This document shows positions 35,213-54,501 of a stretch of DNA of 54,564 bases, piece by piece. The number at the start of each line of letters is the position of its first letter. The stretch's first letter is position 1. The DNA comes from a virus, in the IMG/VR virus record IMGVR_UViG_3300045999_012682, positions 1 through 54,564 of that record, one strand, 5' to 3'. The translations under genes were made by a program, and so were the position numbers. Under the pieces are notes generated by a model. It did not search any database. It was given only the letters and a program-made list of their open reading frames with translations, and was not told where the DNA came from.

Positions 35213-36037
35213 CTGGTCTCTAGTTTCTTAGAGGGGTGGACTATCTCTTCATCCCTGTGGGATGCCGGACGCTAAATCTGGTATTACGTAACAAGATCGT
35301 GTTACACCCAGTAGTCTCTGCACCTTCCAATCACGGCTTGATTGGCTTGGCTCAGGATTACCCTCGTCTTTACGTTAGGGCTTCCCTGAATTCATCCGGT
35401 TTGCACTCATCGATTGCTCGGTGAGGTGACAACGTTGAGCGTTCAGTTGAGGCATGCTATGCTTTGGAAACTTGTTTATGAACAAAATGAATCCAAAACT
35501 TGTTCCTGGATTTGGTAATCTTTACTTGACAGAAGAAGGAAAAGCTTTTGAAAAACAACTTGATCCCGACAATCAAGAATATTTTCGAGAGATTCCTATT
35601 AGTTCAACCAGTGTTTACGACCGTATTTCAGTTCTTGTAAATGGAAAAAGAAAACGCTTTCATCTTCATGTCTTGATGGCAGTTGTTTTTTTAGGATTAG
35701 ACCTGCGTTCACATGGAACCAGTAACTTTTCCTTACAAGTTGATCACAAAGATAATGACAAGAGAAATAATCAACTTGGCAATCTTGAGATCGTTACCAA
35801 ACAAGAAAATTTAACAAGAGCCTGGAAGAGCGGTTGTTATAAAAACAATGGCTTTGCCAGTAAAGGAAAACCGAAGAAGTCTTTGAGAAAGTTTTCTTCG
35901 GATGACGTGGCTCAGATCAAAGCTTTAAAAGAAGCCGGTCTTTCTTATCGAAAGATTGCTGAAAAGTTTGACTGTAATCACGGAGCTATTTACCAAATCT
36001 TGAAGGGCTATACCTACCAGGATCTGAACTAGCTATC
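35213..36037 (-). other. group I intron in the major capsid gene, with antisense HNH ORF
   Basis: The minus strand shows the catalytic core in order: P element near 35381-35392 (AATTCAGGGAAG), Q near 35349-35359 (AATCCTGAGCC, as in the tRNA-Leu introns of cyanobacteria), R near 35308-35324 (GTGCAGAGACTACTGGG), S near 35238-35249 (AAGAGATAGTCC), and a P9 hairpin CTCTA-AGAAAC-TAGAG at 35218-35233. The 3' splice is placed after CCAG (35213). The 5' splice is inferred at 36037/36038, where GTGTTTATT can pair with GGTAAATA or GGTAGGTA. Boundaries at the 5' side are uncertain. Confidence 0.8.
35454..36032 (+). CDS. HNH homing endonuclease inside the intron, antisense
   Basis: This is a 192-residue protein with an HNH_3-type core, LHVLMAVVFLGLDLR ... 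LQVDHKDNDKRNNQLGNLE, carrying His and Asn residues of the metal site, and a C-terminal HTH (VAQIKALKEAGLSYRKIAE ... HGAIYQIL). It runs on the opposite strand to the intron and capsid exons. It probably mobilises the intron. The start could be at the ATG at 35478. The ORF ends two bases before the proposed 5' exon. Confidence 0.85.
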   Translation: MLCFGNLFMNKMNPKLVPGFGNLYLTEEGKAFEKQLDPDNQEYFREIPISSTSVYDRISVLVNGKRKRFHLHVLMAVVFLGLDLRSHGTSNFSLQVDHKDNDKRNNQLGNLEIVTKQENLTRAWKSGCYKNNGFASKGKPKKSLRKFSSDDVAQIKALKEAGLSYRKIAEKFDCNHGAIYQILKGYTYQDLN

Positions 36038-52148: not shown

Positions 52149-52633
52149 GTTGTAATTTTTGGGGTAATTAGAGAAAATACATACAAAAATGAAGTGCAAA
52201 TTACAAAAATAGGTATTTATTACTACAAAAAGAGCCCCTATATATGGCGAATAGGGTACAAAATTACCTGACTCTTCTCCAACACCCCAACCGAATTGAA
52301 TTGTGTATAGAAAAAAAGAAAGGTGTGAGGGGTCTTAATTATATGGGTAGGGAAAGAGCATTGAGAAGCACCGAGCGAAGCTCGGGAAAACATCAATGAT
52401 CAGATTCCCGACCAATTTACCGTACAATATTCGCTATTTTCCTTATCAATTCCGCGTTTGATACGAATTCGTATCGCGCGTGAGGTTGGGTAATCCCCCG
52501 CTACATCTAGTGTTTCAATTAGGACAGTAATGAATTCTAACTCTATTTAATTCCGACCTTTTAACTCGGGATTTATATACGTCAAGCTGGACGTTAAACG
52601 TAGCTTTTACGTCAACTTCACTTCACTTCAACC
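52149..52633. promoter_or_regulatory. about 485-bp noncoding region with hairpins and palindrome
   Basis: No gene is supported here. The region contains an A/T-rich stretch, a hairpin CCCTAT/ATAGGG at 52237-52257, a CCGAGC-GAA-GCTCGG hairpin near 52369-52383, a 16-bp palindrome at 52460-52475, and AAGCT/ACGT-based stems at 52586-52608 before the first gene of the array. It is a candidate early promoter or replication-origin region. Not verified. Confidence 0.6.
52460..52475. repeat. 16-bp palindrome, copy 1
   Basis: A perfect palindrome with half-site GATACGAA joined to its reverse complement. The same 16 bases recur at 54426-54441. Here the flanks read CGCG...CGCG, so symmetry is extended by short arms. 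It could be a protein-binding site. Confidence 0.8.
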
Positions 52634-52813
52634 ATGGACATTTACTTCACTGTAGCAACCAAGCAAGCGACGTATCACTTCGTGGTCAACAAGGAAGTGG
52701 GCTTAGCTCGTATCACCAAGCTGGTTCGAAAGCAACAGAAGGGTTACGACTGCAGCACCACGATGTCAGTTGATCAGGCACGTAAGTTTGTACGTCAGCT
52801 TCAAGCCAGGTGA
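52634..52813 (+). CDS. small protein, first of right-hand array
   Basis: This is a 59-residue protein (DIYFTVATKQATYHFVVNK, VGLARITKLVRKQQKG, SVDQARKFVRQLQAR), a mix of beta and helix with a Lys/Arg-rich second half. It follows a hairpin plus short T run. Function unknown. ATG at 52634 follows CTTCAACC. Confidence 0.6.
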   Translation: MDIYFTVATKQATYHFVVNKEVGLARITKLVRKQQKGYDCSTTMSVDQARKFVRQLQAR

Positions 52814-52895
52814 GTTATAGCTCCCAAGCCAGGTGCAATGCCTGGCTCTGGTTATTGCCACACTCACGTGGCATCTCTGTCTACACCACAGCATC
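52814..52895 (+). promoter_or_regulatory. structured leader A (T-arm-like hairpin plus TGCCAC/GTGGCA stem)
   Basis: After the stop, GCT..AGC makes a mini-stem. AGCCAGG-TGCAATG-CCTGGCT (52827-52847) is a 7-bp stem with a 7-base loop like a tRNA T-arm, and TGCCAC-ACTCAC-GTGGCA (52856-52873) is a second hairpin. ATAGCT can pair with GGTTAT to close an acceptor-like stem, giving the same order as leaders B and C. Confidence 0.6.
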
Positions 52896-53084
52896 ATGAT
52901 CAAAGCTGAACACACGTTTGCAGCAGTCATCATCACAGCATTTGGTCTTGGCATCCTTGCAGGCCCAGTCGCTGGTTACTTCATTGATAAGGCAACTACC
53001 AAGCAATGTCTTAACCATGACTGGCCCAAGGAGGCTGATCAAATCCACCGTGACTGGTGCATTACCAACGGCTACAAGATCTAG
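52896..53084 (+). CDS. small single-pass membrane protein
   Basis: This is a 62-residue protein from the ATG at 52896. IKAEHTFAAVIITAFGLGI and LAGPVAGYFIDKAT form a hydrophobic helix with a polar tail (WPKEADQIHRDW). A longer in-frame opening at 52833 would start inside leader A. It could act at the host membrane during early infection. Function unknown. Confidence 0.62.
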   Translation: MIKAEHTFAAVIITAFGLGILAGPVAGYFIDKATTKQCLNHDWPKEADQIHRDWCITNGYKI

Positions 53085-53164
53085 CTGATTCGTTAAAGCG
53101 AGCGACCAGGTGCAAACCCTGGTCCAGCACTTGCCACAATCCCGTGGCATCTACTCAACACACC
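53085..53164 (+). promoter_or_regulatory. structured leader B
   Basis: GCT...AGC mini-stem, then GACCAGG-TGCAAAC-CCTGGTC (53104-53124), and TGCCAC-AATCCC-GTGGCA (53132-53149). The tail CTACTCAACACACC leads to the ATG. The order and spacing are the same as in leaders A and C, but the acceptor-like pairing is weak here (GCTG/CAGC). Confidence 0.6.
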
Positions 53165-53347
53165 ATGTACTACTCCGTTCAAGTCAAGCGCAATCCCTTT
53201 GCTGTTTACACTGACTACACATTTGAAGACACTTACTTCCAGGGATGTGAGAAGGTATTTGACACCGAGCAAGAAGCTCTTGAATACTTCCAATCCTTTG
53301 AGGATTGGGAGCAAGATCTTCTGGTAGTTGACTACCATCCTTTCTGA
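53165..53347 (+). CDS. small acidic protein
   Basis: This is a 60-residue protein from the ATG at 53165. Beta-start (YYSVQVKRNPFAVYTDYTF) then acidic aromatic-rich region (TEQEALEYFQSFEDWEQDL). Start chosen by the leader pattern; the open frame extends 36 codons into leader B. Function unknown. Confidence 0.62.
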   Translation: MYYSVQVKRNPFAVYTDYTFEDTYFQGCEKVFDTEQEALEYFQSFEDWEQDLLVVDYHPF

Positions 53348-53423
53348 TAGCTGGTGCGTAGCCGGGTTCGATTCCCGGCATCAGACTTGCCACAATCCCG
53401 TGGCATCTACTCAACACAACACC
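53348..53423 (+). promoter_or_regulatory. structured leader C with tRNA-like minihelix
   Basis: TCTGAT at 53344-53349 (overlapping the stop) can pair with ATCAGA at 53380-53385. Inside lie a GCT...AGC mini-stem and GCCGGG-TTCGATT-CCCGGC (53361-53379), a near-perfect tRNA T-arm. Then CTTGCCA and the hairpin TGCCAC-AATCCC-GTGGCA (53388-53405) follow. It looks like a tRNA lacking the anticodon arm. Confidence 0.65.
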
Positions 53424-53696
53424 ATGCAAACACCTGCACTGGTTTACAAACCATCCGCTGAGATTCAGTATCGCGTCACATGGTATGGCGGCGAATCAAC
53501 AATGCTTCGATTTGAGAAGCTATGGAATACATTCGACCCAGATACCGATGCTACATACCAGGAATGGTTGGAGCGTGACGTACGTACTCTCATGGATGGT
53601 ATCCCTAGTTCCATGAAAGAGATGCTGATGGAAATGGAAGATTTCTATCATTACGGCATCGACATGGAACAAGAACGTAAGCGTCAGCTTATGTGA
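53424..53696 (+). CDS. small acidic Met-rich protein
   Basis: This is a 90-residue protein from the ATG at 53424. An N-terminal strand (IQYRVTWYGGESTMLRFEK) is followed by helices (SMKEMLMEMEDFYHYGI). Start chosen by the leader pattern, with the open frame reaching into leader C. Function unknown. Confidence 0.62.
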   Translation: MQTPALVYKPSAEIQYRVTWYGGESTMLRFEKLWNTFDPDTDATYQEWLERDVRTLMDGIPSSMKEMLMEMEDFYHYGIDMEQERKRQLM

Positions 53697-53765
53697 CTCT
53701 TGCACTAAGGGGCTACGGCCCTTTTCTGCAGGACTCTATATCCTGCCTCCATTCCATACGACATC
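53697..53765 (+). promoter_or_regulatory. structured leader D (two hairpins with 7-base loops)
   Basis: AAGGG-GCTACGG-CCCTT (53707-53723) and GCAGGA-CTCTATA-TCCTGC (53728-53746) lie between a stop and the next ATG. The block TTTTCTGCAGG...TCCTGC...CGACATC recurs, modified, upstream of the gene at 54502. No T run follows, so these are not classical terminators. Confidence 0.55.
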
Positions 53766-54367: not shown

Positions 54368-54501
54368 TTGTATAACACATCAGTATATACATTCTACCGA
54401 TCTCTGCACTTAACCCTTCCGTCTTGATACGAATTCGTATCGGACGGTAGGTTTTCTGCAGGGCTTTCCTGCACTACACCACACGACACCAAGTTAGTTC
54501 T
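54368..54501. promoter_or_regulatory. leader E with extended palindrome and GCAGG hairpin
   Basis: The 16-bp palindrome copy 2 lies at 54426-54441, with flanking CCGTC (54419-54423) and GACGG (54443-54447) extending the symmetry. A GCAGG-GCTTT-CCTGC hairpin (54458-54472) is followed by a CCACACGACACC stretch before the last ATG. Confidence 0.6.
54426..54441. repeat. 16-bp palindrome, copy 2
   Basis: The same 16 bases as at 52460-52475. The extra CCGTC/GACGG arms make an almost 29-bp inverted structure. The two copies bracket the array of small genes. Confidence 0.85.

Follow-up and report, generated by a model that had tools for sequence, protein, structure and literature searches.

A tRNA or tRNA-like fold lying between or behind genes marks the processing sites of a long transcript in mitochondrial tRNA punctuation and in the t-elements of plant mitochondria. 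Plant RNA viruses (TYMV and others) carry tRNA-like structures that occur singly, terminate the genome and can accept an amino acid. At the right end of the window analysed here, the whole stretch of a 54.6-kb cyanophage fragment, four small plus-strand genes are separated by three gaps of 76–82 nt that hold folds resembling tRNAs. The terminase of this phage is 82% identical and one large virion protein 74% identical to those of Synechococcus phage S-EIV1, and protein comparison found no other isolate similarly close. The four genes (52634..52813, 52896..53084, 53165..53347 and 53424..53696) encode proteins of 59, 62, 60 and 90 aa without family assignment; none has a PHROG match, and their Pfam matches are at chance level only. 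Relatives of gene 3 occur in virus loci L009, L022 and L050, and relatives of gene 4 lie behind other element types in L083 and L206.

The surroundings of the array contain several further features. Immediately 3′ of gene 4, GGGC-TACG-GCCC followed by TTTT (53710-53725) forms a terminator-like end to the punctuated part of the array, and the genes from 53766 on carry no tRNA-like element. The palindrome TTGATACGAATTCGTATC flanks the gene array at 52457-52475 and 54423-54441, each copy inside a longer dyad, and is possibly an operator or promoter-associated site. Far from the array, a group I intron (Rfam RF00028, 94 bits) lies at 35217-35459 on the minus strand, near the major head protein gene.

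A reading made from the sequence alone had located the gaps (52814-52895, 53085-53164 and 53348-53423) with their stops and starts, the stems with 7-nt loops and the TGCCAC-N6-GTGGCA hairpins, all of which our sequence check found at those positions. We found that each gap follows one layout, beginning within the upstream stop codon or slightly ahead of it with an acceptor-like stem (4–6 bp), a D-arm-like hairpin and a T-arm (6–7 bp, 7-nt loop), after which the acceptor 3′ strand abuts the T-stem and is followed by 1–2 unpaired bases, TTGCCAC-n6-GTGGCATCT and the next ATG. The exact string TTGCCACn6GTGGCA occurs three times in the window, each time within one of these gaps. Compared to dinucleotide shuffles, the tRNA-like parts fold better (z −2.4 to −3.5), as do the tRNA-like parts and leader hairpins taken together (z −2.0 to −3.5).

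Element A (52804..52854, plus strand; called from sequence, fold z −2.8 and a model R1 score of 21.6 bits) pairs 52804-52809 with 52848-52853 as its acceptor-like stem, places a D-arm-like GAG/CTC hairpin within 52810-52826 and a 7-bp T-arm with loop TGCAATG at 52827-52847, and ends in an N73-like A at 52854. This element, whose type is also found in S-TIP37, contains the gene 1 stop (52811-52813), and the alpha-type 5′ leader hairpin of gene 2 follows at 52855..52876 (plus strand). Element B (53084..53130, plus strand; fold z −3.5) scores 72.8 bits with model R1 (E about 3 × 10−17 at 53081-53135) and consists of an acceptor-like stem (53084-53087 with 53125-53128), a TTCG..CGAG D-arm within 53088-53103 and a 7-bp T-arm with loop TGCAAAC at 53104-53124. 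The last base of the gene 2 stop codon TAG (53082-53084) is shared with this acceptor-like stem, and the alpha-type leader hairpin of gene 3 follows at 53131..53152 (plus strand). Element C (53343..53386, plus strand; fold z −2.4), of a type also present in L009, L050, L066 and L184, pairs TCTGAT (53343-53348) with ATCAGA (53380-53385), the gene 3 stop TGA (53345-53347) lying within the 5′ strand; its T-arm (53361-53379) has 6 bp and loop TTCGATT, its N73-like base is C 53386, and the alpha-type leader hairpin of gene 4 occupies 53387..53408 (plus strand). The D-arm is clear in A and B and weak in C, where it lies at 53350-53360. These assignments revise two details of the sequence-only reading. 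The acceptor-like stem that it had seen in C exists but is not special to C, since A (AGCCAG/CTGGTT) and B (GCTG/CAGC) have their own, and the TAGCT box that it had listed in all three gaps is present but is not a single feature, being the 3′ side of the D-arm in A, the stop TAG plus the acceptor-like 5′ strand in B, and the start of the weak D-arm in C.

Relatives of these elements are numerous. Exact scans of IMG/VR found element parts in at least 150 loci (more than 150 in all). With a structural descriptor we retrieved 359 copies, 247 of them distinct, from 162 loci, compared to 10 in Markov-resampled sequence, which excludes chance, and a covariance model built from 38 type-I sequences found 99 copies in 39 loci. 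Overall, about 250 distinct copies lie in 138–162 virus loci; the retrieval patterns were derived from the elements themselves, so these frequencies describe what those patterns reach. Searched with the covariance model, 18 of 20 whole records contained copies, mostly as one compact cluster per record. Two copies were found in each of two isolates: S-EIV1, where they occupy minus-strand gaps next to annotated small genes and have N73|UU at about 43,455 and 43,748, and the T7-like S-TIP37. When 84,980 bacterial and archaeal species were scanned with a pattern, no convincing copy appeared: of the 2 matches obtained, one, in a Methanoregula contig, is apparently due to chance, and the other sits at the end of a contig and has no pairing T-stem. 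We therefore rejected a host-derived repeat. The D-arms fall into types (TCCGTnnAAGCGGG, TTCG/CGAG, GAG/CTC, GGTC/GACC, CCAG/CTGG and CAGG/CCTG) that differ from each other by compensatory changes, and the T-arm follows the D-arm after a few nucleotides in most copies, so that the anticodon arm is absent. A few elements (L202:8159-8223, minus strand, and L127) insert an extra hairpin, such as CTCCTCATTGAGGAG, between D-arm and T-arm, where a tRNA would have its anticodon or variable arm.

We found that both stems covary across the related phage loci. Among 134 distinct type-I elements, selected on D-arm and T-loop only, acceptor pairs 1–4 are formed in 98–100%, pair 5 in 79% and the next position in 15%, and all seven T-stem pairs are formed in 99–100%, the variable positions showing all four Watson-Crick types. 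In alignment A1, 97.2% of cells are paired compared to 74.5% after shuffling and 32–54% after sliding, the covariation score is 0.634 (0.174 shuffled) and 137 cells carry double changes (43 shuffled); the sequences are related and recombine, and this lack of independence is ignored by the shuffles and accounted for by the slides. The acceptor 5′ strand doubles as the end of the upstream reading frame, and a substitution in the final codon before the stop therefore has its counterpart about 40 nt further on. For a covarying element with about 250 distinct copies an origin as remnants of tRNA genes is unlikely, and we discarded that proposal.

The elements also preserve a distance typical of tRNAs. 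When copies were selected only for a T-arm and TTRCC within 6–25 nt, the T-loop was 13 nt from TTRCC in 229 of 284 distinct copies and 14 nt away in a further 43, regardless of whether the T-stem had 5, 6 or 7 bp, whereas the control gave 6 scattered matches. The acceptor/T-stem helix is thus divided as 7+5, 6+6 or 5+7 while the distance between the T-loop and UU stays constant, and 13 nt is the value of a tRNA (T-stem 5, acceptor 7, discriminator 1). Further tRNA features are the 12-bp acceptor/T-stem helix, a 7-nt T-loop with C56 and A58, and one unpaired discriminator, which is A in 119 of the 134 type-I elements; positions 74-75 are UU in 129 of these and CC in none, and the first acceptor pair is often A-U or mismatched. 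The 7-nt loop prevails and C56 and A58 are nearly invariant even where no loop was demanded, some retrieval patterns having included the loop and the type-I pattern not. Together, covariation and the tRNA-length ruler give good support to the earlier proposal of a tRNA shape lacking its anticodon arm. The accompanying idea of an RNase P minihelix ending in CCA finds no support, and we rejected the CCA of TTGCCA as a tRNA 3′ end, because this CCA does not occupy positions 74-76 but pairs in the next hairpin, and because it varies, relatives having TTGCCC or TTGCCT. In about 87% of copies the stop codon lies within the acceptor 5′ strand or behind it, and the upstream ORF terminates at the element in 284 of 295 (control 62%), placing the elements between same-strand genes that presumably belong to one transcript.

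Complete tRNAs occur at the same position in other phages. In T4-like cyanophages, a tRNA-Arg(UCU) with its anticodon, differing from the window's elements in being a full tRNA, shares with them its position, discriminator, directly adjoining UUGCC...GGCAUCUA hairpin and following small gene. The flank reads TTGCCACACAATTGTGTGGCATCTA in S-RIM4, TTGCCACAATTGTGTGGCATCTA in S-H35 and TTGCCCTTCGGGGCATCTA in S-MS29, Syn9 and Syn10. As this flank is common to real and reduced tRNAs, we place the tRNA 3′-processing point at N73|UU. In Syn9 (L226, 250-417), the tRNA-Arg gene is overlapped by the annotated gp203, a probably spurious gene call. Several relatives (L009, L035, L069, L080, L087, L116 and others) carry a tRNA-Leu(UAA) gene, mostly with an encoded CCA and often only about 15–25 nt upstream of a start codon, which may double as punctuation or as an attachment site.

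The 5′ leaders that follow N73 all begin with TTRCC, and among 295 copies they comprise 119 pseudoknots, 91 alpha hairpins, 58 other hairpins and 25 others. Start codons come about 30–45 nt after TTGCC, and the gap has a median length of 81 nt. Both helices of the H-type pseudoknot covary (99.3% paired, 30 double changes compared to 6.4 shuffled). This pseudoknot, TTGCCNnnnGCGGAGATNGGCACCGC, is seen in leaders of L075 (5815-5860), L066, L067 and many more loci, often with a hairpin on its 3′ side that holds the Shine-Dalgarno sequence and start codon (CACGGAGAACACCCGTG), and it is a second undescribed RNA family that may regulate translation. The 340 upstream genes sort into 72 short-protein families, the largest of which has alpha (19), pseudoknot (14) and other hairpin (1) leaders and is followed by elements of types I (18), Ib (17) and III (6). 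Since one gene family thus occurs with differing leaders and differing downstream elements, the 5′ part, the gene and the 3′ part are exchanged between phages.

These data suggest that the gaps are two-part RNA punctuation, at which a cut by host RNase Z at N73|UU would yield separately stable single-gene messages; the structure of both parts is shown, and we give the reading as a whole, cleavage included, a probability of roughly 55%. The first part is a tRNA mimic without an anticodon arm, in which acceptor and T-stem stack as a coaxial helix of 12 bp, accompanied by a T-loop, a small D-arm and an unpaired discriminator-like base. The second part starts with UU-GCC and forms a hairpin or H-type pseudoknot that begins two bases past the discriminator and runs up to the next start codon. 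RNase Z contacts acceptor and T-arm, cuts after the discriminator and is blocked by CC; D-arm and anticodon loop are dispensable, cleavage of arm-removed substrates being known for archaeal RNase Z and not demonstrated for B. subtilis RNase Z (PMC7479834). At the level of sequence, the elements possess what such a substrate needs, namely acceptor and T-arm, an unpaired discriminator and no CC (PMC7479834). Host RNase Z would measure the acceptor/T-arm helix and cut after the discriminator, where no CC stands, leaving the element's 5′ side unprocessed. The upstream mRNA would keep its stop codon and gain a tRNA-like 3′ end that resists 3′ exonucleases and possibly receives CCA, and a hairpin or pseudoknot close to the very 5′ end of the downstream mRNA would protect it from 5′-end-dependent decay; with both ends protected, one array transcript would thus become separately stable single-gene messages. 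The 16 related phage records searched contained no phage-encoded RNase Z, so a host enzyme would be needed. Points against this model are that cyanobacterial RNase Z would have to tolerate a long mRNA 5′ leader and that ribosomes reaching the stop codon would briefly unfold the acceptor stem. The broader proposal that the gaps hold processing or stability signals of a polycistronic message is, like that of the tRNA shape, well supported by covariation, the tRNA-length ruler, the modular 3′/5′ layout and the complete tRNA that T4-like cyanophages have at this position.

We then weighed four other explanations. Were RNase P to cut as well as RNase Z, the tRNA-like piece would be freed and the genes split as in animal mitochondria, a full punctuation that we consider unlikely. 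RNase P recognizes a 12-bp acceptor/T-stem helix with a T-loop-like end, requiring this end and the helix length and dispensing with the D-loop (PMC4919913), and the ruler of the elements equals that of true tRNAs. However, the upstream stop codon and the acceptor strand usually overlap, and a cut at the acceptor base would therefore delete the stop in about 87% of copies, an objection that applies equally to the RNase P processing envisaged by the sequence-only reading; the UU that follows the stem in place of RCCA and the first pair, often A-U or mismatched, also count against it. We favour a single RNase Z-type cut because the features of an RNase Z substrate are present and because an RNase P cut would remove the stop.

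It is quite improbable that the structure stays uncut and acts as a nuclease shield, a site for a host tRNA-binding protein or a stability mark. The stable fold, its strong conservation and the covarying hairpin or pseudoknot directly after it speak for such a role, but the exact 13-nt ruler, the UU and missing CC at 74-75, and the presence at the same position in T4-like cyanophages of a true tRNA, which is necessarily trimmed there, are left unexplained. A role in translation, with stop, tRNA mimic and leader promoting re-initiation or recruiting ribosomes like viral intergenic IRESs, seems very improbable. The stop codon is built into the stem, the gap is compact and a Shine-Dalgarno sequence is almost absent from alpha (1 of 82) and gamma (2 of 55) leaders; however, without an anticodon-like arm nothing mimics codon-anticodon pairing, window genes that no element precedes likewise have A/C-rich leaders without Shine-Dalgarno, and about half of the pseudoknot leaders carry one, some in a hairpin together with the start codon. 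Finally, the view that element and gene form a mobile cassette whose structured DNA is a crossover or integrase target like integron attC has very little probability: although gene families keep company with varying leaders and downstream elements in different phages and tRNA genes are known integration targets, as with tRNA-Leu in S-TIP37 (PMC8776855), the covariation obeys RNA rules including G-U pairs and ends exactly at 12 bp, the elements keep a constant place with respect to stop and start codons, and ordinary homologous recombination between conserved stretches accounts for the exchange.

If the single cut by RNase Z takes place in this array, it could, we suggest tentatively, reflect a general form of phage mRNA punctuation, in which swappable anticodon-less tRNA mimics with a built-in stop set 3′ ends, hairpins or pseudoknots serve as 5′ caps, the host tRNA 3′ maturase makes individually protected messages and the parts are exchanged like connectors. 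Such small connectors would set the 3′ and 5′ ends of bacterial mRNAs. The elements would also mark a limit of tRNA reduction that tRNA enzymes can still measure, with the anticodon arm lost, the acceptor/T-stem junction mobile and the total of 12 bp kept.

The elements form a structured RNA family that is absent from Rfam 15 and present in the isolates S-EIV1 and S-TIP37 and in many virus contigs. No Rfam 15 family, including the cyanophage manA, wcaG and PhotoRC motifs, matches at its gathering score, and a relaxed threshold gave chance-level matches only. Nor is the layout described in the passages considered from the papers on manA/wcaG and on the S-CREM1 non-coding RNA, and nothing matching was found in the open literature on tRNA-like elements in phages. 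tRNA models (Rfam RF00005, ARAGORN) found no tRNA in the window, and ARAGORN called one relative element tRNA-???. Element C was considered as a degenerate tRNA or tmRNA and rejected, its matches being at chance level only. Like the tRNA-like domain of tmRNA (RF00023), the phage element has an acceptor and T-arm, a reduced D-arm and no ordinary anticodon arm, but it lacks a tag reading frame and a pseudoknot ring between the halves, and only 17 T-arm bases match. The best tRNA-like Rfam resemblance of element C is to mascRNA/menRNA (RF01684; 18.5 bits, below the cut-off of 42.5), likewise a tRNA-like fold and in that case one processed from a longer transcript; sequence and host differ, and the match is not statistically valid. 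A message ending in a tRNA-like fold, as in plant RNA viruses, is the product predicted for the phage element, whereas the phage elements are internal and repeated and have neither an anticodon nor an encoded CCA (74-75 being UU). A further parallel is with mitochondrial tRNA punctuation and plant t-elements, which also lie between same-strand genes of one transcript, as we infer for the phage array. The phage element differs in belonging to a DNA phage, in lacking the anticodon arm, in overlapping the stop codon and in having a dedicated 5′ hairpin or pseudoknot, and its cleavage is a prediction. Judged by its structure, it would work like these organellar systems, as a candidate member of either, and should the proposed reading hold, tRNA punctuation would extend from organelles to bacterial viruses.
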